A stretch of 64,000 nucleotides of DNA, from NCBI GenBank assembly GCA_016207515.1, contig JACQPN010000021.1, positions 1 to 64,000 of the forward strand, in the 5' to 3' direction. Shown in pieces: positions 13,587-43,275 of the stretch. The position numbers were made by a program, and so were the translations under genes. Each line of letters begins with the position of its first letter. Position 1 is the first letter of the stretch. The notes beneath the pieces were generated by a model, which had not been told where the DNA came from, ran no database searches, and worked only from the letters and a program-made list of their open reading frames with translations. This DNA comes from Euryarchaeota archaeon. GTDB lineage: Archaea; Thermoplasmatota; SW-10-69-26; JACQPN01.

Positions 13587-13733
13587 ATGTCCAGGCTCCT
13601 GTCGGTCACGTGCCGTCTTAGTGGGAGCCGCGCGTCGTACGCATCTTTCCATTCGGGGTTTGGAGGCTGGAGCGTAGAACACTTATCGACGGTCGGCAAG
13701 GACCGTCGAACGGATATCAACAAACGAAAGTGA
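13587..13733 (+). CDS. Possible 48-aa leader peptide upstream of S8 protease
   Basis: ATG 13587 follows GGAGGTGA (13570-13577) by 9 nt and opens a 48-codon frame beginning MSRLLSVTCRL. Its TGA (13731-13733) overlaps the GTG start of the S8 protease gene as GTGA, the usual geometry of translational coupling. The peptide is not hydrophobic and has no recognisable family. A perfect 8-bp hairpin (13687-13708) lies inside its 3' half, close to the protease start. It may be a regulatory leader or a chance frame. Confidence 0.35.
   Translation: MSRLLSVTCRLSGSRASYASFHSGFGGWSVEHLSTVGKDRRTDINKRK
13687..13708 (+). promoter_or_regulatory. Leader hairpin before first S8 protease
   Basis: CGACGGTC and GACCGTCG form a perfect 8-bp stem around a GGCAAG loop, ending 21 nt before GTG 13730. 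It is placed where it could affect ribosome access to the protease start. Comparable strong hairpins lie in the leaders at 17919, 20423, 23538, 24463 and 24494. Confidence 0.5.
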
Positions 13734-14938
13734 AAATTCTCATGAAAAGAACTTTGTCAATCTTCGTTGCGATAGCGATGCTTGGAGTGCCGGCCGCGAT
13801 GGCCCTTCCCGACGTAGGGACGCCCACCGTGCCCGAGACAGGCCCGACACGATGGATCGTCGGCTTCTACGAGATGCCCGACATCAAGGAAGGGGACCTC
13901 TACCTTGGCGAGCGCGTCGTCAGCACGACGCCGCAGGGAGGCTTCATCACCATAGAGACGATGAACTTCGACCTATTCGAGGCGAAGGCGAACCTCGACG
14001 AGAACGTGCAGTGGATCGAGACCGACTTCTCCGACCACCAGCTCTTCTTCTCGCCGAACGACTTCTACGTCGCCCACTCGTCGAACTGGGGCATGAACAA
14101 GATCGGTCTACCGACCGCATGGGACACGACCCTCGGCTCGACCTCCATCAAGGACGGTCACCTCGACTCCGGCCGCGTCATCGGCCACGAGGACCTCTCT
14201 GGGACGCGCTTCCAGAACGGTTTCGACTACAAGAACAATGACGCGACCCCGGACGACAACTCGGGCTGCAGCTGGCACGGTTCGCACACGAGCGGAACCG
14301 TCGCGGCGACGATCAACAACGCCAAGGGCTTCCCCGGCACGGCACAGGTCACGCTGCGGTCAATCAAGATCTTCGGCACCAAGGGGAACTGCCTAGCGGC
14401 CTCGACCACGGGGATCGCAAACGCGATCTACGAAGCTGGTAACCAAGGGAGCCACCTTAGCTCGAACAGCTGGGGCGGCGGCGCGTTCTCGACCGCGATA
14501 AACAACGCCATCAACACGGCGCGCGGCCAGGGGACGATCTTCGTCGCAGCGGCCGGAAACGGCGGCTGCAGCAACTGCATAGGGCAGCCTTGGCTCCCAC
14601 AAGAAGCGAACGTCATCATCGTGACGGCGACCGACGTGAATGATGCGGGCGCCTCCTTCAACTCGAAGGGTCCGCAGACGGACGTCTCCGCTCCCGGTGT
14701 GGGCATCGGCAGCGCAGGTGGGCCGGGCAATAGCTACTATGTCATGTCGGGAACGTCGATGGCCACCCCGTACGTGACGGGCGTCGCTGGGCTCATCAAG
14801 ACGCTCCACCCGACCTGGACGGAGCTCCAAGTCGAGGGCTGCTTGAAGAGCACCTCGCTCGACCTAGGTTCGGCCGGCGAGGACGACACCTTCGGCGCGG
14901 GCCGTATCAGGGCGAACCTCGCGGTAGGCTGCGTCTAA
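13730..14938 (+). CDS. Secreted subtilisin-like serine protease (S8), single-domain
   Basis: The 402-aa preproenzyme has a signal peptide (to about residue 25), an I9-like propeptide (about 40-105) and a subtilisin domain. Catalytic residues are Asp147 (HLDSG), His186 (HGSH) and Ser343 (GTSMATP), with oxyanion Asn277 (AAAGN). The Asp motif is divergent: the usual hydrophobic strand before DSG reads KDGHL. The paired-Cys segment CSNC is shared with the protease at 17963, its close paralogue, but this one lacks C-terminal accessory domains. GTG 13730 overlaps the upstream leader ORF; ATG 13742 would give the same mature protein. A strong terminator follows. Confidence 0.93.
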   Translation: MKILMKRTLSIFVAIAMLGVPAAMALPDVGTPTVPETGPTRWIVGFYEMPDIKEGDLYLGERVVSTTPQGGFITIETMNFDLFEAKANLDENVQWIETDFSDHQLFFSPNDFYVAHSSNWGMNKIGLPTAWDTTLGSTSIKDGHLDSGRVIGHEDLSGTRFQNGFDYKNNDATPDDNSGCSWHGSHTSGTVAATINNAKGFPGTAQVTLRSIKIFGTKGNCLAASTTGIANAIYEAGNQGSHLSSNSWGGGAFSTAINNAINTARGQGTIFVAAAGNGGCSNCIGQPWLPQEANVIIVTATDVNDAGASFNSKGPQTDVSAPGVGIGSAGGPGNSYYVMSGTSMATPYVTGVAGLIKTLHPTWTELQVEGCLKSTSLDLGSAGEDDTFGAGRIRANLAVGCV

Positions 14939-17962: not shown

Positions 17963-20086
17963 TTGAAGAATGGAGTGAAGAACGGAACATTGGCGGCAGC
18001 TGTTTTGCTGGTGGTCGGAATCCTTCCCGCGCAAGCGCTTCCTGATGAGGGGCTCATCGGAGACGCGTTGACACCCGGGAATTACATCGTCGGCTTCTAC
18101 AAGGACCCGTTCCTGAAAGCCGGCCAGGAGTACATGGGCGAACCCATCCTCGCAGTGGACCATGAACTCCTTTACATCATCGTCGAAGTCGATGACCCGG
18201 CGCTTTTCCAAGCGCGAGTCACCCTTGACGACGCGGTGCGCTACGTCCAATTCGACGATCCGAACTACGCGCACTTGAACTTCGTCCCGAACGACACGCA
18301 GTACAGCGCCGCAGGCCACTGGGGCTCCAAGAAGATCGGTGCGGAGGCCGCATGGGATCGGACCCTCGGCTCGACAAGCGTCAAGGTCGGCATGATCGAC
18401 TCCGGGATATTCGCGACGCACGAAGACGTCGTCGGCTCTCGACTACTCGCCGGCTGGGATTTCGTGAACAACGACGCGACCCCGAACGACGAGTCCGGTT
18501 GCAGCTACCACGGGAGCCACACGAGCGGAACGGCCGGCGCAACGATCAACAACGCGAAAGGGATTGCGGGGATGTCGCAGCATTCGATTCTCCCTATCAA
18601 AGGCCTCGGCGGCGTGGGCTGTTCGGCGAGCTCCAGCATGCTCGCGAACTCGCTGCGCTTCGTGCGTGACCAAGGCGGCCACATAAGCAGCAACTCATGG
18701 GGTGGCGGCGGTGTCGACACCCTCATCAACGACGCGATACAGTACGCGCACGACGGCGGTGTTATCCACATTGCGGCGGCGGGTAACTCGGGTCCATGCA
18801 CTAACTGCGTTGGCCAGCCGTGGAAGTCGAAGCCGACGGTCACCATCATCGTCGCCTCGACGACCTCGACGGACACGCAGTCCTCGTTCTCCAGCGAAGG
18901 CAGCGAGGTGGACGTATCCGCGCCCGGTTCGAGCATCCTCTCGCTCGGCGGGGGTGTGAGCACTTACCAGACGCTCTCCGGAACCTCCATGGCCACGCCC
19001 CACGTCGCGGGCACGGCGGCGCTTCTCAAGGCGCAGAACCCGGGCTGGACGTTCGCGGACGTCGACAACCGCCTTAAGACGACGGCGGTCGACCTCGGCC
19101 CCGCGGGATGGGACACGGACTTCGGCTACGGCCGCATCAACGCGGACGCGGCGACCGCAGGCGGACCCCCGCCTGCTGCTGCCTGTGGCGACGGACTCGA
19201 CAACGACGGCGACGGTCTTACGGACTACCCGGCGGATCCGGGCTGCACGTCGACCTCCGACACCGACGAGTTCAACGCGCCTTCGGGTTGCAGCGGCGGC
19301 CCCGCGAACAACTGCTTCGCGAGCGCCACGACGATGTCTGCCGGCGGACAGACGATAACGCAATCGAGCGTCGGAGCGACCACGGAGACCGGTGAGCCAG
19401 CCCCATGTGGAAGCATCGGCGGCACCGTCTGGTTCAACTGGACGCCGACGACCTCGGGCACTGCGACCTTCGAAACGGCCGGTTCGAACTTCGACACCGT
19501 CCTCGCGGTCTACACGGGCTCGTCCTTGACGGCCTTGACGAACCTCAACTGCAACGACGACATCTCGGGCACCGACCTCGATTCGAGGATCGTCAGCTCC
19601 GTGACGGCCGGAACGACTTACCGCATCCAGGCGGGAGGCTACGCCAGTGCCACGGGCACGACGCTCGTGATGCGCGTCGTCGCGCCGGCGGCCTGCAGCG
19701 GCCCGACCGGGAACTGCTTCTCGACTGCGGTCGGGATCACCTCGATCCCCTATACGCAGACGAAGAGCACCGTGGGAGCGACCCTTGAGACGGGCGAGCC
19801 GCGGCCTTGTGGATCGATCGGCGCGACGGTGTGGTACACCTACACGCCGGCGACGACGGGGACCCGTGTTGCGGACACGATGGGCTCGAACTTCGACACC
19901 GTCGTCGCGGTCTACACGGGCTCGTCCTTGACGGCGTTGACGAACGTCGGCTGCAACGACGACATCTCGGGGAGCGACCTCGACAGCCGCGTGACGTGGA
20001 CGGCGACCGCCGGAGTCACCTACCGCATACAGGTGGGCGGCTACAACGGTGCCACGGGAAGCAGCATGGTCTTCCACCTGAACTAG
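17963..20086 (+). CDS. Secreted subtilisin-like serine protease (S8) with two C-terminal PPC-like domains
   Basis: The 707-aa preproenzyme starts at TTG 17963 behind a strong SD. Signal peptide to about residue 25; I9-like propeptide 38-110; S8 domain with Asp146 (MIDSG), His186 (HGSH), Asn275 (AAAGN) and Ser342 (GTSMATP). An acidic linker, CGDGLDNDGDGLTDYP (about 408-423), is a likely Ca2+ motif. Two tandem pre-peptidase-C-type beta domains follow (443-572 and 578-707), each with PCGSIG, SNFDT and LTALTN. They are nearly identical over long stretches of DNA, implying recent duplication. It is paralogous to the protease at 13730 but longer. Confidence 0.94.
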   Translation: MKNGVKNGTLAAAVLLVVGILPAQALPDEGLIGDALTPGNYIVGFYKDPFLKAGQEYMGEPILAVDHELLYIIVEVDDPALFQARVTLDDAVRYVQFDDPNYAHLNFVPNDTQYSAAGHWGSKKIGAEAAWDRTLGSTSVKVGMIDSGIFATHEDVVGSRLLAGWDFVNNDATPNDESGCSYHGSHTSGTAGATINNAKGIAGMSQHSILPIKGLGGVGCSASSSMLANSLRFVRDQGGHISSNSWGGGGVDTLINDAIQYAHDGGVIHIAAAGNSGPCTNCVGQPWKSKPTVTIIVASTTSTDTQSSFSSEGSEVDVSAPGSSILSLGGGVSTYQTLSGTSMATPHVAGTAALLKAQNPGWTFADVDNRLKTTAVDLGPAGWDTDFGYGRINADAATAGGPPPAAACGDGLDNDGDGLTDYPADPGCTSTSDTDEFNAPSGCSGGPANNCFASATTMSAGGQTITQSSVGATTETGEPAPCGSIGGTVWFNWTPTTSGTATFETAGSNFDTVLAVYTGSSLTALTNLNCNDDISGTDLDSRIVSSVTAGTTYRIQAGGYASATGTTLVMRVVAPAACSGPTGNCFSTAVGITSIPYTQTKSTVGATLETGEPRPCGSIGATVWYTYTPATTGTRVADTMGSNFDTVVAVYTGSSLTALTNVGCNDDISGSDLDSRVTWTATAGVTYRIQVGGYNGATGSSMVFHLN
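19291..19683 (+). repeat. Internal tandem duplication, unit 1 (PPC-like domain)
   Basis: First of two adjacent units of about 400 bp encoding the protease C-terminal beta domains. The block containing TCTACACGGGCTCGTCCTTG recurs unchanged in unit 2. Confidence 0.7.
19693..20083 (+). repeat. Internal tandem duplication, unit 2 (PPC-like domain)
   Basis: Second unit, about 402 bp downstream of the first, with the same Cys and Asp landmarks (CGSIG, SNFDTV, CNDDISG) and near-identical DNA in the centre. Confidence 0.7.
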
Positions 20087-37556: not shown

Positions 37557-37633
37557 CGACGAGGAGAGAATGACCCCATCGCTGGAATTCTCGGATTCTA
37601 CGGTGTAACGATCGGCCAATCAGGGTGCGCTGG

Positions 37634-39268
37634 ATGAGCAAGGAAGACAAGCGTGGGGAGAAACGGACTGGCAGAGTGGCAGACAGCATCAGCGAGGCGA
37701 CCGGGGACCCCCGCGTGCGGAACATGAGCGACGAAGAACTCGCCGCATACGTCAAGGAGAACTTCTCGGAGCGGGAAGCAGAACTCTCGCGCCTTGAACG
37801 CCAGATGAAGGCCCAGACGACCGAGGTCTCCGAACTGCAGGCCGTCGTGAAGGCCTACGAGGACAAGTTCAACCAGATCAAGGAGCCACCACTTCTTTCG
37901 GGCTACGTGCTGCGCCTACACGGCGACGACCTGGGACAACGCGAGGTCTCCGTGGCGAACGGCACCCAAGTGCTCAAGGTCAACACCGGAAACCTCGAAA
38001 AAAACGACTTGGAGCAGGGCCAGTACGTGTGGCTCCACCCGAAGACGTTCGCGATCATCGCGGGAAGCCAGCATCACGAGCAGGGGATCGTCGGGAAAGT
38101 CGTCGAAGTGATGGGCGGGAAGATCGTCATCAGCCTCGGCGACGGGTTCGAGAAGAAGGTCGTCGAACTCGACCCCGCGGTCGCAGAGGACATCAAGATC
38201 GGCTACGAGGTGTCGCTTCTCCCGCCCACCCTTGAGATACTCGAGGTGCGGCCGTCCTCGGAGATCCGCGACCTGTTCCTCGGCGAAAAACCGAACGTGC
38301 GCTATGCGCAGATAGGCGGCCTCGAAGAGGTCCTCGAACGCATCCGCGACGTCGTCGAACTCCCGTACAAGGAACCGGAGCTATTCAAGAAGATCCGTTT
38401 GAAGGCGCCACGAGGGGTCCTCCTCTACGGTCCGCCCGGGTGCGGAAAGACGCTCATCGGGAAGGCCGTCGCCACCGAGAACGATTTCACTTTCTTCAAC
38501 GTGAAAGTCGCCGACATCCTCTCGAAATGGGTCGGCGAATCGGAGAACATGATCAAGGCCATCTTCAGGAAGGCCCGTGAGAACGCGCCGAGCATCATCT
38601 TCTTCGACGAGTTCGACGCCCTCGGGACGACCCGGGGCCAACAGGACACGGCTGGTGTGCACAAGAACATCATCGCGCAGATACTCTCCGAGATGGACGG
38701 CATCGTCGCTTTGAACGACGTCTACGTCTTCGGGGCGACGAACCGGCCGGACATGATAGACCCGGCGCTTCTACGCCCCGGCCGCTTCGACGAGGTCATA
38801 GAGCTACCGAGGCCGAACCGCCAAGGTGCCCGGGCAATACTAGACATCTACCTCGCCCCCGACCTGCCACTCCAGAAGGCCTACGTGGACCAGTTCGGAA
38901 GCAAGGAGAAGGCTCTCGAAGCCCTCAAGGAAAAGGTCATCTCCGAACTCTACGACGAAGACAAGTGGATCGAGTGGAAACTCGACGTGGAAGCAAAAGA
39001 GAACGTGAAGACGATCAAGAGGAAGGACATCGTCTCGGGCGCACTCATCGAATCCATCGTGACGACGGGCAAGAAGAACTACGTGAAACGCGTGCTCCAA
39101 TACCCGAAAGGAAGCCCACAGCGCGACGCGGAGGGCCTCGCCCCCGAGGACCTGGTGAAGGCCGCTGAAGAGGAGTCGAAGGAGCACGCGCTCGTCGAGT
39201 CCTCGGTCTACCAGAAGCGCCAAAGGGAGCGCGCAAGGTTCAGGCCTGAAGGCGTCGAAGTGATGTAA
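37634..39268 (+). CDS. ARC/Mpa-like proteasomal AAA ATPase
   Basis: Ring ATPases of this type unfold substrates for the 20S proteasome. Residues below count from the in-frame GTG 37625, three codons before the preferred ATG. An N-terminal coiled coil (about 37-85) is followed by two OB-like beta domains (90-147 and 154-210) and an AAA domain: Walker A GPPGCGKT (269-276), Walker B IIFFDEFDAL (324-333), sensor ATN (371-373), arginine finger RPGR (384-387). Two OB folds, GPPGCGKT and a long C-terminal insertion (KWIEWKL... DIVSGALIESIV) match bacterial ARC/Mpa rather than archaeal PAN, which has one OB fold. The C-terminus (GVEVM) lacks an HbYX motif. A PafA homologue lies 1.3 kb downstream. Confidence 0.88.
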   Translation: MSKEDKRGEKRTGRVADSISEATGDPRVRNMSDEELAAYVKENFSEREAELSRLERQMKAQTTEVSELQAVVKAYEDKFNQIKEPPLLSGYVLRLHGDDLGQREVSVANGTQVLKVNTGNLEKNDLEQGQYVWLHPKTFAIIAGSQHHEQGIVGKVVEVMGGKIVISLGDGFEKKVVELDPAVAEDIKIGYEVSLLPPTLEILEVRPSSEIRDLFLGEKPNVRYAQIGGLEEVLERIRDVVELPYKEPELFKKIRLKAPRGVLLYGPPGCGKTLIGKAVATENDFTFFNVKVADILSKWVGESENMIKAIFRKARENAPSIIFFDEFDALGTTRGQQDTAGVHKNIIAQILSEMDGIVALNDVYVFGATNRPDMIDPALLRPGRFDEVIELPRPNRQGARAILDIYLAPDLPLQKAYVDQFGSKEKALEALKEKVISELYDEDKWIEWKLDVEAKENVKTIKRKDIVSGALIESIVTTGKKNYVKRVLQYPKGSPQRDAEGLAPEDLVKAAEEESKEHALVESSVYQKRQRERARFRPEGVEVM

Positions 39269-39272
39269 TCTC

Positions 39273-40010
39273 GTGACCGCACCCGCAGGGGTTCACGACG
39301 CACTCGCTCGGGAGATTTTCGCTTGCCGCCAGTGTCGCGCCGAATCATCCAATATTGCGACCGCCGAGGCTCGCCGAGACTTCGCAGAAGCCGTCGGCGC
39401 TGGCGGCGTCGGAAATCTTCGGGAGCCCCAGATTATGGACGGCCCCGATCATTGTGACATTTTGGTTGTAAGCATTAACCCCCGTCTTCACATGGGTTCG
39501 GCCCCAGTCGTAGATGAGGAAGAATACATTCGCGAAAGGGCGCGCACGGCCGCGAAGGATCCCGAGGGACCATTAGACAAATTCGTTGAGGCGGTCCAGC
39601 GGGTCCTTCCTGAGGGTTTCAGCTGGTGGAACCGCGAAAACAACACGGTTGGGAACACAAGAATCTGCAAGTGCCCCACAGCAAAGTGGACGGGGAAGTT
39701 TGCTTGGGCAGCCGAGGCTTGCGGTGATCGGTTCTTCGCGCGGGAGATTTCAATGCTGCAACCACGCGCTATCTTGATTACTGGGAAGGCCGAGTGGCAA
39801 ACGATGCTTTCGGTTTTCGGAATCACGACTGACCAGTTCGAGGACACGGCAGACCTCTTACCACTGATGGGGCGGATCGACGGCCGGGACATTCGCATCG
39901 TCGCAGCGCATCATCTCACAAGAAAACTGACACTCGATCCAGTCTATTTGGAGCGGGTCAAGGCACTGCTTACGATGGCTATTTCGGCGCGGAGCTGGCC
40001 GCCTACATGA
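39273..40010 (+). CDS. Uracil-DNA-glycosylase-superfamily-like protein with Fe-S cysteines
   Basis: The 245-aa product begins 4 nt after the ATPase stop, so it is probably in the same transcript. It looks like a divergent family 4/5-type UDG. Cysteines are spaced for a 4Fe-4S cluster (C18 and C21 in CRQC; C134 in KCPTAKW; C150), with a motif-1 equivalent ILVVSINP (63-70), the FFAREISMLQPRAILITG helix-strand (154-171) and a late His motif (AAHHLT, 211-216). The usual GEAPG motif is replaced by SINPR, so glycosylase activity is uncertain. Its role beside a proteasomal ATPase is unclear. Confidence 0.65.
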   Translation: MTAPAGVHDALAREIFACRQCRAESSNIATAEARRDFAEAVGAGGVGNLREPQIMDGPDHCDILVVSINPRLHMGSAPVVDEEEYIRERARTAAKDPEGPLDKFVEAVQRVLPEGFSWWNRENNTVGNTRICKCPTAKWTGKFAWAAEACGDRFFAREISMLQPRAILITGKAEWQTMLSVFGITTDQFEDTADLLPLMGRIDGRDIRIVAAHHLTRKLTLDPVYLERVKALLTMAISARSWPPT

Positions 40011-40093
40011 CAAACGCCCAAGCTTGGTTAGCTTTCATACTCGTCGGTGGTTTCGAATTCCAAGCGCCAGGCCATCTCGCCGCCTTAAACGGT

Positions 40094-40117
40094 TGTAAAC
40101 GCGTTCCAGGGTTTACA
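40094..40117. promoter_or_regulatory. Upstream TGTAAAC...GTTTACA operator
   Basis: TGTAAAC (40094-40100) and GTTTACA (40111-40117) form an inverted repeat with a 10-nt spacer, upstream of the wHTH promoter. The half-site matches those at 40164-40191. Confidence 0.6.
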
Positions 40118-40140
40118 TTTGTGGCGTTCCCTCGTAACCC

Positions 40141-40148
40141 TTAAGATA
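40141..40148 (+). promoter_or_regulatory. TATA box of the wHTH-pafA operon
   Basis: TTAAGATA preceded by CCC (BRE-like) would place the transcription start near 40170, within the overlapping operators. Confidence 0.55.
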
Positions 40149-40163
40149 GGCCTCGTACACATC

Positions 40164-40191
40164 TTTTACAGTAGTGTAAAAAATGTTTACA
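40164..40191. promoter_or_regulatory. Overlapping palindromic operators over the wHTH start
   Basis: TTTTACA-GTAG-TGTAAAA (40164-40181) is a perfect palindrome. The same TGTAAA half-site also pairs with TTTACA (40186-40191) around AAATG. The three half-sites begin at 40165, 40175 and 40186, about one DNA turn apart, and cover the predicted transcription start and the ATG. This is the layout of a repressor site, presumably for the wHTH protein encoded here. Confidence 0.65.
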
Positions 40192-40512
40192 ACCATCTTC
40201 GGCGACACCCCGAACGCGCGTATCCTTGGGTTCCTCAAGGACCACGCCGAGTTCGACTACACGATCTCGGAGATTGCCCGTAACTCGGACGTGTCCCGCC
40301 CGACGACCTACAAGGTCGTCGACGAGTTCGTGAAGAACGGGATCCTCATCGAGACGAGGAAGGTCGGCATCAGCTCGTTTTACAAGCTCAATCTCGGGCA
40401 TAACGCCGTGAAGTACTTCATGGACATGGACGAGGGGGTGCTCGCCCCTTCGCCGGGCGGCAAACAGCGTCGTCGACTCCCACAGGACAGGTCGCGGGGG
40501 CAGTCACGCTGA
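40183..40512 (+). CDS. Winged helix-turn-helix transcriptional regulator
   Basis: The 109-aa protein has a compact winged-HTH: a first helix (ARILGFLKDH), HTH 'YTISEIARNSDVSRPTTYKVVDEFVKNGIL' region (about residues 25-55) and wing strands (IETRKVGISSFYKLN). A basic disordered tail follows (after about 85, rich in Arg/Gln). It resembles small archaeal repressors of the MarR/ArsR/Rrf2-like fold class without a clear ligand domain. TGTAAA palindromes cover its own start, suggesting autorepression. The PafA homologue follows 22 nt downstream in the same operon, so this regulator probably controls tagging capacity. Confidence 0.85.
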   Translation: MFTTIFGDTPNARILGFLKDHAEFDYTISEIARNSDVSRPTTYKVVDEFVKNGILIETRKVGISSFYKLNLGHNAVKYFMDMDEGVLAPSPGGKQRRRLPQDRSRGQSR

Positions 40513-40534
40513 AAGGAAGCGTGGGGAGGAGAGC

Positions 40535-41815
40535 ATGAGGCCGATGATCCAGGGTTCGGAGCACGAATACACGCTCTACAGCCAGAAGATGAACCCGATC
40601 GGTGTCGACCCGCACAGGTTGGCCCTTGAGATACTCCGGGGCTCCGACCTAGCGCTTCAAGGGGAATACCTGAAGGACGGTGCTCGCGCGTATTTCGACG
40701 TCGGCCACTTGGAGATCTCGACTCCGGAGGTCGACAATTTCATGGACCTCGTGCGATGGGAGAAGGCCGGTGAGAAGATCGTCGACCTCCTTCGTTTGAA
40801 ACTCGAGAGCGACCACGGCGTCAAGATCAACGCGTACAAGAACAACACCGACCCGGACGGCGTCTCCTATGGGAGCCACGAGAACTACTGTGTCTCCCGT
40901 CAGTTGGCCTTCCCGGACACTTTCATCAAGAAGCTCGCCCCCCACCTCATCTCGCGGATAATCTACTGCGGGTCGGGCGACATCATCGAGCAGAAGTACG
41001 TGCTCTCGCCGTGCGCATACCTCACGAGCCAGATGGTCTCCGGAGGCAACCTCTACAACACCGGGGTGCTGCACACGCGCGACGAGCCCCACGCAGACCC
41101 GTCCCGCTTCAGGCGCCTCCACGTGATAATCGGCGACGCGTTGATGAGCGAGGTCTCCATCATGCTTCGCTCCTTCACGACCAGCATGGTGCTTCGCGGT
41201 ATGGAAGAGGGCCGTTTCGAGGACGCCCCCGAATTCGCGGAGCCGCTACGTGACCTTTGGAAGATGGTGGAGACACTCGACCCTCTGAAGTGGAAGTTCG
41301 AGATGAAGGACGGCAAGAGCCAGTCTCCGATGGACGTGCAGCGCTATTATATGCGCCACGTGGAGGACATGATAGATACGCAGGAGGAGAAGGAGGCCTT
41401 CGCGCTCTGGGAATGGGTCCTTGAGAAACTCGAGAAGGGGGCGATGAAGGACCTCGCCCGCAAAGTGGAGTGGGCGGCGCGCCTTTACGAGGTGGAGCGC
41501 CAGATCGTTCTCAAGGGACGCGCGGAGAACGTGGAACTCGCCGCCGTGAAACAGTACTCGGAACTGAACGAAGGCCGCAGCCTCTACTATAAGCTGCAGA
41601 ACGAAGGGAAGATCGACCGCGTCATCACGGACAAGGAGATCAAGTTCGCGATAAACAACCCGCCTCCGAACACCAGAGCCGCCGCGAGGGTCAAGATCCT
41701 CGACGAGTACGAGGCGGCGAGCGTCGATTGGGCCGAGATACGGATCATGACGGAGGACGGCGGTTCGGAGACGATAGAGCTCCCGGACCCGTACTCGACG
41801 AAGGTGCCCATATGA
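40535..41815 (+). CDS. pafA: Pup-ligase (PafA/Dop family) homologue
   Basis: PafA activates the C-terminal glutamate of Pup with ATP and joins it to substrate lysines; Dop deamidates or removes Pup. The 426-aa product keeps the family signature throughout: metal-binding GSEHEY (Glu9, Glu11), YFDVGHLEISTPE with catalytic-base Asp55, YKNNTDPDG-VSYGSHENY (101-118), TRDEPHAD (181-188), RRLHVIIGD (193-201) and the C-terminal region with VDWAEIRI. DVG rather than DHA, and the lack of a long loop insertion, point to the ligase branch. SD GGGGAGGAG precedes ATG 40535. Archaeal occurrence is unexpected. The specific modifier is not identified. Confidence 0.92.
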   Translation: MRPMIQGSEHEYTLYSQKMNPIGVDPHRLALEILRGSDLALQGEYLKDGARAYFDVGHLEISTPEVDNFMDLVRWEKAGEKIVDLLRLKLESDHGVKINAYKNNTDPDGVSYGSHENYCVSRQLAFPDTFIKKLAPHLISRIIYCGSGDIIEQKYVLSPCAYLTSQMVSGGNLYNTGVLHTRDEPHADPSRFRRLHVIIGDALMSEVSIMLRSFTTSMVLRGMEEGRFEDAPEFAEPLRDLWKMVETLDPLKWKFEMKDGKSQSPMDVQRYYMRHVEDMIDTQEEKEAFALWEWVLEKLEKGAMKDLARKVEWAARLYEVERQIVLKGRAENVELAAVKQYSELNEGRSLYYKLQNEGKIDRVITDKEIKFAINNPPPNTRAAARVKILDEYEAASVDWAEIRIMTEDGGSETIELPDPYSTKVPI

Positions 41816-41931
41816 CGCGCATGAGGATGAGAGCCTTGCAACAGGGGTCCACCGCAACGCTCAAAGGGTCACAAGCGGAATGGGATATGACGCAAGGGAC
41901 GAGACACCAAAGCACGCCAGCGAGAGACTAA
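41812..41931 (+). CDS. Possible 39-aa hydrophilic protein overlapping pafA stop
   Basis: ATG 41812 overlaps the pafA stop as ATGA, the geometry of translational coupling, and opens a 39-codon frame (MTRMRMRALQQGS... ending TPARD). The peptide is polar and basic with no hydrophobic core, so it is probably disordered. It does not end in the Gly-Gly-Glu/Gln expected of Pup. It ends 1 nt before the 60-aa ORF. It could be a real small protein or merely a translated spacer. Confidence 0.35.
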   Translation: MTRMRMRALQQGSTATLKGSQAEWDMTQGTRHQSTPARD

Positions 41932-41932
41932 G

Positions 41933-42115
41933 ATGACCGAGACAAGACTGAAGAAGAAACAGAAGAAAGACAAGACGTCCGAGGTCAAATTCGACGTCGG
42001 CGAATCGTTCGACGCCGCCTCAGCGAAGGACAAGGACTTCGACCTCGACCTCGAGGCCAGCCGGTTCCAGGGAAAGAAGGGACAGGCCGGCACGAGGAGC
42101 AAGTCGAGCGGCTGA
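41933..42115 (+). CDS. 60-aa highly charged disordered protein, candidate modifier
   Basis: The frame starts with a Lys-rich block (KKKQKKDK), has an acidic centre (FDVGESFDAAS, KDKDFDLDLEA) and ends with RFQGKKGQ-AGTRSKSSG. Size, charge and lack of hydrophobic core resemble Pup and UBact, small disordered modifiers ligated by PafA-type enzymes, and it sits directly behind the PafA homologue. However, the encoded C-terminus is Gly, not the Glu/Gln needed for ligation. Internal KKGQ is loosely like the Pup end. Processing, or a modifier elsewhere in the genome, would be required. Existence as a gene is likely; function is speculative. Confidence 0.6.
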   Translation: MTETRLKKKQKKDKTSEVKFDVGESFDAASAKDKDFDLDLEASRFQGKKGQAGTRSKSSG

Positions 42116-42232
42116 AGCTCAGGAGCGTGACGGCGGCATTGATTCCAGTTCCGTGACGACAAACCCGCAATGGCCGCCGGCACTCGTTGCTCCGGGCATC
42201 CGAACCGTGGGCGCCGCGCTTTTGCCAACCCC

Positions 42233-42239
42233 TAAATAA
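42233..42239 (+). promoter_or_regulatory. TATA box of the presenilin-like protease gene
   Basis: TAAATAA within CCCCTAAATAACC lies 26 nt before ATG 42265 (gap 42240-42264). It predicts a near-leaderless mRNA and an independent promoter from the pafA operon. Confidence 0.6.
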
Positions 42240-42264
42240 CCCCACCTTGATAGCGGCGCGACCC

Positions 42265-43275
42265 ATGGTGGAAACGGCCGAGGCTACGTCTTCTCCCCCA
42301 ACGCCCATCGACTTCAACAGCGACGTGAAGCCCGCGCTCTTCATGGCGGTCCTTTTTCTCGTTGCGCTGTCGCTCGCGGTCGCGATCACGCCCATCTATG
42401 TCGATCAGGGCCTCCAGCTTACCGACGATCCGCAGGACGTCGTGAATCCTGCGATATACCTCGTGTTCGTGATCGCCTTCACGGCCGTCATCCTCGTGAT
42501 TGTGAGACTCGGCCGTGAGAAGGTCGTGAAGTACATCATCCTGGGCGCGGTGTTCACGTCCATCAATTACGTGTTCTGGCCGCTCCTGAACCTCGTCACA
42601 CGCGCAGAGGTCGCTGGAGTGAGCATCGCCCTTGCGGTTTCCATCGTCCTCTCCGCCGCGATGGTCATTCTATTGTACTACTACCCCGAGTGGTGGGTCA
42701 TCGACGCGGTCGGGGTAGCCGTCGCGGCCGGTGCCGCGGCGCTCTTCGGGATCTCGTTCGGGCTCTTGCCTTCGATCCTGCTCCTTGCCGGTTTCGCCAT
42801 CTACGACGCGATCGCCGTCTATCGCACGAAGCACATGATAGACCTCGCCGACTCCGTCCTGGACATGCACCTGCCAATAATGCTCGTGGTGCCGAAGTCG
42901 AAGGGCTATTCGTTTCGCAAGGAAGCGGCGAGGTTGAAGGAGAAATTGAAGGAAGGAGAGGAGCGCGACGCCATGTTCATGGGGCTCGGGGACATCGTGA
43001 TCCCGGCCGTGCTCGTGATATCGAGCATCCGGTTCCTGCCGATGTTCCCGGCGAACGCGGCCGACGTCTTCGGCATCGCGCCTTTCATGTTCGTCGCACT
43101 CGGGACGACGGTCGGGATATTCGCCGGTTACGCGCTCCTCATGTACTTCGTGTTTTCGGGCCGTCCACAGGCTGGCTTGCCGAGCCTCAACGGTGGAGCG
43201 CTGGTCGGTTTTCTCCTGACTGCCGTCCCATTATATGGTCTAGGGCCGCTCACCAGTTTCAACCTAGGATTCTGA
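42265..43275 (+). CDS. Presenilin/signal-peptide-peptidase-like intramembrane aspartyl protease
   Basis: The 336-aa protein has about nine membrane helices and the catalytic motifs of family A22: YD (AIYDAIAVY, Asp181), GLGD (MGLGDIVIP, Asp243) and a PAL-like site reading PSL (about 306-308). A basic cytoplasmic loop (210-235) lies between the two Asp helices, as in archaeal PSH proteins. Such enzymes cleave membrane-protein helices, for example leftover signal peptides. ATG 42265 is fixed by the TATA box. The exported-protein load of this genome gives many possible substrates. Placement after the tagging module may be functional or chance. Confidence 0.9.
   Translation: MVETAEATSSPPTPIDFNSDVKPALFMAVLFLVALSLAVAITPIYVDQGLQLTDDPQDVVNPAIYLVFVIAFTAVILVIVRLGREKVVKYIILGAVFTSINYVFWPLLNLVTRAEVAGVSIALAVSIVLSAAMVILLYYYPEWWVIDAVGVAVAAGAAALFGISFGLLPSILLLAGFAIYDAIAVYRTKHMIDLADSVLDMHLPIMLVVPKSKGYSFRKEAARLKEKLKEGEERDAMFMGLGDIVIPAVLVISSIRFLPMFPANAADVFGIAPFMFVALGTTVGIFAGYALLMYFVFSGRPQAGLPSLNGGALVGFLLTAVPLYGLGPLTSFNLGF

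Follow-up and report, generated by a model that had tools for sequence, protein, structure and literature searches.

Pupylation is described in reviews as a bacterial process, and an archaeal locus on which a gene of the Pup-ligase (PafA/Dop) family and a gene for an ARC/Mpa-like AAA ATPase lie close together raises the question whether, and in what form, archaea tag proteins in a similar way. The locus resides within the first 64,000 nucleotides of contig JACQPN010000021.1 (Euryarchaeota archaeon, Thermoplasmatota; GCA_016207515.1), a stretch that is called the window throughout; it is part of a 194 kb contig in a genome of 2.67 Mb that is 98% complete. On the forward strand, the genes follow each other in the order AAA ATPase, UDG-like open reading frame (ORF), winged-helix regulator, PafA/Dop-family enzyme and a charged ORF of 60 aa.

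In our opinion, the locus likely represents a pupylation system that is native to a set of Thermoplasmatota and that would extend protein tagging of the Pup kind beyond the bacteria. The tag would be the small protein encoded at 41933-42115, and one PafA/Dop-like enzyme would join it to its targets via a Glu that is either internal or exposed by trimming of the tail. With ATP, the PafA-like enzyme would phosphorylate the tag at the gamma-carboxylate of its KG[E/Q] Glu and join this residue to target lysines, while Gln copies, such as the one in the window's genome, would either be deamidated first or be activated directly. As the genome has a single PafA/Dop gene, any deamidation or tag removal is probably the work of this enzyme, too. 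The ARC ring would bind the tag through its coiled coil, unfold the substrate and feed it into the 20S proteasome. This reading draws on the presence of two enzyme families with intact catalytic residues and on a conserved tag gene that co-occurs with pafA and contains a position restricted to Glu or Gln. A sequence-only reading of the same DNA had already proposed a Pup-like pathway for this archaeon, and the sequences support such a pathway, of which conjugation and degradation are the predicted steps. The tag gene and its unusual C-terminal tail were absent from that reading and are newly recognised here.

A Pup-ligase family enzyme and an ARC-type unfoldase in an archaeal genome

The product of the gene at 40535-41815 (forward strand, 426 aa) is a true member of the Pup-ligase (PafA/Dop) family. 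It matches PF03136 (Pup_ligase) with 310 bits (cut-off 25; E 4e-92) and holds every motif that had been named as a family signature beforehand, namely E9/E11, D55, YKNNTD, SYGSHENY, TRDEPHAD and RRLHVIIGD. The active-site and nucleotide residues (GhExE, the catalytic Asp, the His of HENY, the Arg of NTR, the His of RRLH and the Trp of the C-domain) are intact and invariant across the archaeal set. Likewise, all eight active-site residues given for the Dop of A. cellulolyticus (E8, E10, Y92, D94, E99, H155, R227 and H241; Cui et al., PMC8599861) are matched by identical residues in the archaeal sequences aligned. The best structure matches of the AlphaFold model (pLDDT 82, pTM 0.86) in a Foldseek search are PafA-Pup (4BJR, E 4e-29), PafA and Dop (E 4e-29 to 4e-22), and the next fold family, that of the glutathione-type ligases, follows only at E 5e-6. 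Kinship with other carboxylate-amine ligases, which had been considered as the finding that would overturn the assignment, is ruled out by profile, tree and fold.

Within the family, the enzyme takes a position of its own. The scores for TIGR03686 (PafA, 253 bits, cut-off 551) and TIGR03688 (Dop, 251 bits) are tied, and both lie under the equivalog cut-offs. The Dop-loop of about 37-40 residues, by which Dop proper is recognised, is absent from all archaeal ligases aligned. At the positions that discriminate PafA from Dop (PMC7947786), the enzyme shows PafA-like features, with DVG at the catalytic Asp and VDW in the C-terminal domain; as a PafA proper, it falls short in the equivalog score and does not group with PafA. 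In a tree with actinobacterial sequences, the archaeal ligases, PafA and Dop form three separate and well-supported groups, and the archaeal clade lies outside both PafA and Dop. As this tree is unrooted and its joining branches are long, no claim is made on which of these groups split off first. UBact-type or other bacterial ligases that could root the tree were not found in viral contigs, and plasmid and phage records gave only actinobacterial-type ones. The record MT835496.1 (L045) carries a Pup-Dop-ARC locus of the actinobacterial type and, despite its deposition as 'Bacteriophage sp.', probably represents a bacterial contig.

The ATPase gene ends 1,266 bp upstream of the ligase ORF, in agreement with the 1.3 kb estimated previously, and its product (37634-39268, forward strand, 544 aa; alternative GTG start at 37625) is an ARC/Mpa-type unfoldase. 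Among the protein families, TIGR03689 (pup_AAA, ARC/Mpa) fits best, with 350 bits over nearly the whole model, compared to 279 bits for PAN; the TIGR03689 equivalog cut-off of 504.75 bits is missed by the window's ATPase and passed by none of the seven genomes of the class. In the tree, the protein clusters with bacterial ARC at a support of 100/99, and the PAN and CDC48 sequences from its own phylum fall elsewhere. The AlphaFold model consists of a coiled coil (residues 33-82), two OB-like beta barrels (88-148 and 152-206) and an AAA domain with an aromatic pore loop (KWVG), and its 30 best PDB structure matches in Foldseek are all mycobacterial Mpa (best E 1.4e-35). CDC48 tops the PDB sequence search through a two-domain score that sums over the AAA domain only. 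An identity as PAN or p97 is hence rejected by profile scores, tree and structure matches, and the phylogenetic placement that had been asked of both proteins came out on the side of the PafA/Dop family and of bacterial ARC.

We found no report of archaeal pupylation in the open-access literature (subscription papers and preprints lay outside the search), where the pathway is described for bacteria only, and a contaminating contig would thus be a fair prior assumption. The host is, however, archaeal by the genes of the window, which include FEN1 (TIGR03674, above the archaeal cut-off), PurP, Nep1 and a presenilin-type protease (PSH), and an archaeal small-subunit rRNA gene is present elsewhere in the genome. 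Base composition at the locus matches its surroundings, pafA occurs in all seven genomes of the class, and the same genes recur in many separately assembled archaeal metagenome-assembled genomes (MAGs) from other genera and families. The archaeal ligases are moreover 50-71% identical to the window copy, whereas the bacterial ones found reach only about 33-34%. Contamination or a chimeric contig, a concern that had been raised at the outset, is rejected on these grounds, and we regard a contaminant, or genes that a single genome recently acquired from bacteria, as extremely improbable. An ancient transfer from bacteria is possible.

A conserved small protein encoded beside the ligase

The ORF downstream of the ligase gene (41933-42115, forward strand) encodes a highly charged protein of 60 aa, MTETRLKKKQKKDKTSEVKFDVGESFDAASAKDKDFDLDLEASRFQGKKGQAGTRSKSSG, for which a role as a Pup-like tag is proposed. 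In tblastn searches, a homologue was found directly after pafA in the locus of nearly every relative, with a length of 58-63 aa. Iyer et al. 2008 (PMC2588565) characterised Pup proteins by a length of 50-90 residues, a gene next to pafA and a C-terminal G[EQ] signature, and the archaeal homologues match the first two of these features. Most loci of the soil clade show the arrangement ARC-pafA-tag, with a gap of 3 nt between ARC and pafA and an overlap of 17 nt between pafA and the tag gene, which is the signature of a co-translated operon. The divergent copy of the tag in one genome (G026) keeps SARYSARKGQGGDRR.

Across a sample of 390 genomes of the phylum, PF03136 was detected in eight, and the tag was present in seven of these eight and in none of the 382 PafA-negative genomes, counts that are not phylogenetically independent as they come from two lineages in the phylum sample, to which the soil clade can be added. 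In the remaining PafA-positive genome (G043), pafA is cut by the contig end and no tag was found. The tag of G037 is present though unlinked to pafA, and pairwise ratios of non-synonymous to synonymous substitution rates (dN/dS) of 0.03-0.32 indicate purifying selection. Taken together, the adjacency to pafA, the co-occurrence, the unlinked presence in G037 and the purifying selection provide strong evidence from sequence comparison that the small protein works with the ligase.

The Glu/Gln position and the conserved C-terminal tail

If the small protein is a substrate of a Pup ligase, a Glu or a Gln would be expected at the site of attachment. In all 20 archaeal tags that were aligned, an invariant KG precedes a column of Glu or Gln, which is flanked on its other side by [GA]GxR. 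On the pafA tree, the column toggles between E and Q at least six times with no third residue, and each of the other alignment columns with at least six changes holds at least four residue types. The tag of the window has a Gln at this position (Gln51, codon 42083-42085; the predicted attachment residue), about half of the relatives have a Glu, and even sister genomes can differ (e.g., Q in L029 and E in L032). Such a restricted toggling fits what would be predicted for a substrate that is deamidated and then ligated.

These results also bear on the idea that the enzyme acts on some other substrate, as a gamma-glutamyl ligase or hydrolase, and that the small protein represents only an inhibitor or a regulatory subunit. 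Other carboxylate-amine ligases indeed make small molecules, and such an activity could be reconciled with an enzyme that scores under both equivalog cut-offs and with a tag that has no detectable homology to Pup. Against this, a position that accepts only E or Q would be expected of a substrate and not of an inhibitor, the VDW motif of the C-domain is present together with all active-site residues, the nearest fold outside PafA/Dop lies far behind, and the enzyme is associated with ARC. We therefore consider this explanation rather improbable.

In all 20 sequences, 6-10 conserved residues come after G[E/Q], while known Pups end at E/Q (PMC2588565). The tail reads GGDRR[TAS] in the soil/sediment clade and AGTR[ST][RK]... 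otherwise, with AGTRSKSSG in the window (42086-42112), and its conservation holds across the alignments of tag homologues, including that of the 20 sequences. Two possibilities can be imagined, namely that (i) the tag is a precursor whose [GA]G[DT]R... tail is cleaved off by a protease, which makes Glu or Gln C-terminal and lets the chemistry proceed as in bacteria; or (ii) the tail is kept and attachment proceeds through the internal side chain.

The first possibility would leave the pathway otherwise unchanged. Ubiquitin-type precursors provide a precedent for it, and the tail is conserved beyond what a mere extension would need and could itself be a protease site. In addition, all PafA substrates known so far end in a Glu (PMC8599861, PMC2588565), and the bacterial enzymes PafA and Dop act on the terminal residue. 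However, no protease that could trim the tail is consistently linked to the tag gene across the loci examined: PSH is found at some loci of the window's order and an M16 peptidase at some loci of the soil clade. Further, R201 of the C. glutamicum PafA forms a salt bridge with the C-terminus of Pup (Cui et al., PMC8599861), and its counterpart, six residues before the Arg of NTR, is Thr in 14 of 14 archaeal ligases (T176 in the window) and Arg in all five bacterial PafA/Dop sequences aligned. The replacement of an Arg that contacts a free Pup C-terminus points to an internal attachment, and it is suggestive rather than conclusive because the text of that study does not specify which carboxylate R201 contacts. 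All in all, we slightly favour a retained tail with attachment through an internal side chain over a tail that is trimmed first, and a trimmed precursor has, in our estimation, somewhat less than an even chance of being correct.

One could go further and speculate that the tag is attached from side chain to side chain through its internal Glu with the tail retained, that one enzyme both ligates and removes it, and that this resembles the state before PafA and Dop split, in an old archaeal branch of pupylation. This combination of features is put forward tentatively, and we would sooner bet against it than for it. If the internal attachment is true, the tag would be unlike every known Pup, and the enzyme could be used to label proteins with a tag that keeps its C-terminus free.

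Proteasome context, related systems and neighbouring genes

The search of the window's genome that had been suggested for proteasome components was positive: it contains two 20S-family genes (alpha and beta type) and one PAN, and no second PafA/Dop gene was found there, the ligase being single-copy. The seven other PafA-positive genomes hold 2-4 20S genes each and present a similar picture for PAN and 20S. Within the seven genomes of the class that were examined, pafA is found in seven, the tag in six and ARC in four. Relatives with the locus include 'Euryarchaeota archaeon' RBG_19FT_COMBO_69_17, RBG_16_67_27, EA_* isolates, UBA8695 and nzgw66. L022 (JAIVGT010000077.1) is titled 'Halobacteriales archaeon MAG107', a name that looks wrong as the locus belongs to the window's order within Thermoplasmatota.

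Besides the limited independence of the co-occurrence counts and the tail described above, several further observations weigh against a native pupylation system that serves degradation. The tag shows no detectable homology to Pup, with no Pfam match (PF05639, PF20513) and an hhalign probability of 0.4%, and its aromatic residue six positions before E/Q, spaced as in Pup, arises in 2-8% of shuffled sequences and is weak evidence. A search of eight genomes for a canonical Pup encoded elsewhere gave no match above the cut-off, and the tag has no match in the PDB. The 20S genes are unlinked to the locus. The C-termini of the archaeal ARC proteins are near-invariant within each clade, ending in ..VEVM in the window's order (...EGVEVM in the window, 39253-39265) and in ..DPMVG in the soil/sediment clade (L023-L037) and nzgw66, and they are without a proteasome-docking motif of the GxYx (GQYL) or HbYX type; PAN of the same phylum ends in AAFA/MFA. 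Lastly, no ARC was found in family f4 (loci L015 and L019, genomes G022 and G043), although G022 is 95% complete and keeps pafA and the tag. It may be that PAN or Cdc48 serves in place of ARC in this family.

The absence of ARC from family f4 and of a known docking motif from the ARC tails could also mean that ligase and tag do form a real pair, but that the modification they yield is regulatory or membrane-linked and no degradation signal, and Pup loci without proteasome linkage have been reported for planctomycetes and deltaproteobacteria (PMC2588565). This appears unlikely to us, since ARC lies directly 5' of pafA, at a distance of 3-49 nt, in the soil/sediment and groundwater lineages and since ARC and 20S occur together within single genomes. 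We hence keep to a pupylation system that would deliver its substrates to the 20S proteasome.

Compared to the Pup-proteasome system of actinobacteria, the archaeal one has in common the ligase fold and its catalytic residues, an ARC-type ring with a coiled coil and two OB barrels, a small charged tag gene beside pafA, the G[E/Q] signature and a 20S proteasome in the cell. It differs by its archaeal host, by one PafA/Dop-like enzyme in place of two (PafA and Dop), by a tag without detectable homology and with 6-10 residues after G[E/Q], by the Thr in place of Arg201, by an ARC tail without GxYx and by the additional presence of PAN. A divergent tag is shared with the UBact/Pup systems of Nitrospirae, Verrucomicrobia, Planctomycetes and other Gram-negatives (PF20513; PMC2588565; PMC7947786), and in some Planctomycetes, too, one homologue is found that is related to PafA as well as to Dop (PMC2588565; PMC7947786). 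Unlike the archaeal tag, which has no match to PF20513, the Pup proteins of this group carry G[EQ] at the C-terminus, and the transmembrane insertions described in 2008 for the planctomycete and deltaproteobacterial ligases are missing from the archaeal ones (PMC2588565). In line with a terminal position, a UBact sequence reached the last position of the PF20513 model with its final Glu. Archaeal proteolysis by PAN and 20S with SAMP tagging has in common with the proposed system that PAN and 20S occur in the same cell and that a tag directs proteolysis in archaea, whereas tag and enzyme are unrelated. SAMPs are beta-grasp proteins whose attachment runs via a C-terminal diglycine and an E1-like enzyme. 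A complete and conserved set of this kind in archaea with PAN and 20S would give the archaeal proteasome a second potential tagging route, and its single-enzyme branch should help to address how the ligase PafA and the removal enzyme Dop diverged and where pupylation has its origin.

Regarding the genes that had been proposed to accompany ligase and unfoldase, the regulator and the small ORF stood up to comparison and the UDG-like ORF did not. For the winged-helix protein of 109 aa (40183-40512, forward strand; HTH families), tblastn gave matches immediately 5' of pafA in L012, L013, L014, L015 and L019; the protein is thus conserved within the class and probably acts as a local regulator, a role deduced from family and position. 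The UDG-like ORF (39273-40010, forward strand; PF03167 E 7e-4, under the cut-off) is absent from the other loci examined and is rejected as a component of the system. The GC content drops to 53-57% over 39500-40250, around this ORF, which looks like a local insertion.

The locus is bordered upstream by the FEN1 gene on the reverse strand and downstream by the PSH gene (42205-43275, 304 bits), which lies directly after the tag gene, as is also the case in L012 and L013; this adjacency is possibly chance synteny within the order. In the soil-clade loci L027 and L028, a histone-deacetylase-family gene, an SDR gene and an ArsR-type regulator gene are found upstream of ARC-pafA-tag, and LAGLIDADG or V4R genes and an M16 peptidase gene downstream. 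Farther away in the window, two large ORFs (13730-14938 and 17963-20086), which neighbour a series of genes for secreted beta-helix and surface-type proteins, have, by eye, the look of secreted subtilisin-like proteases with a conserved SGTSMATP.

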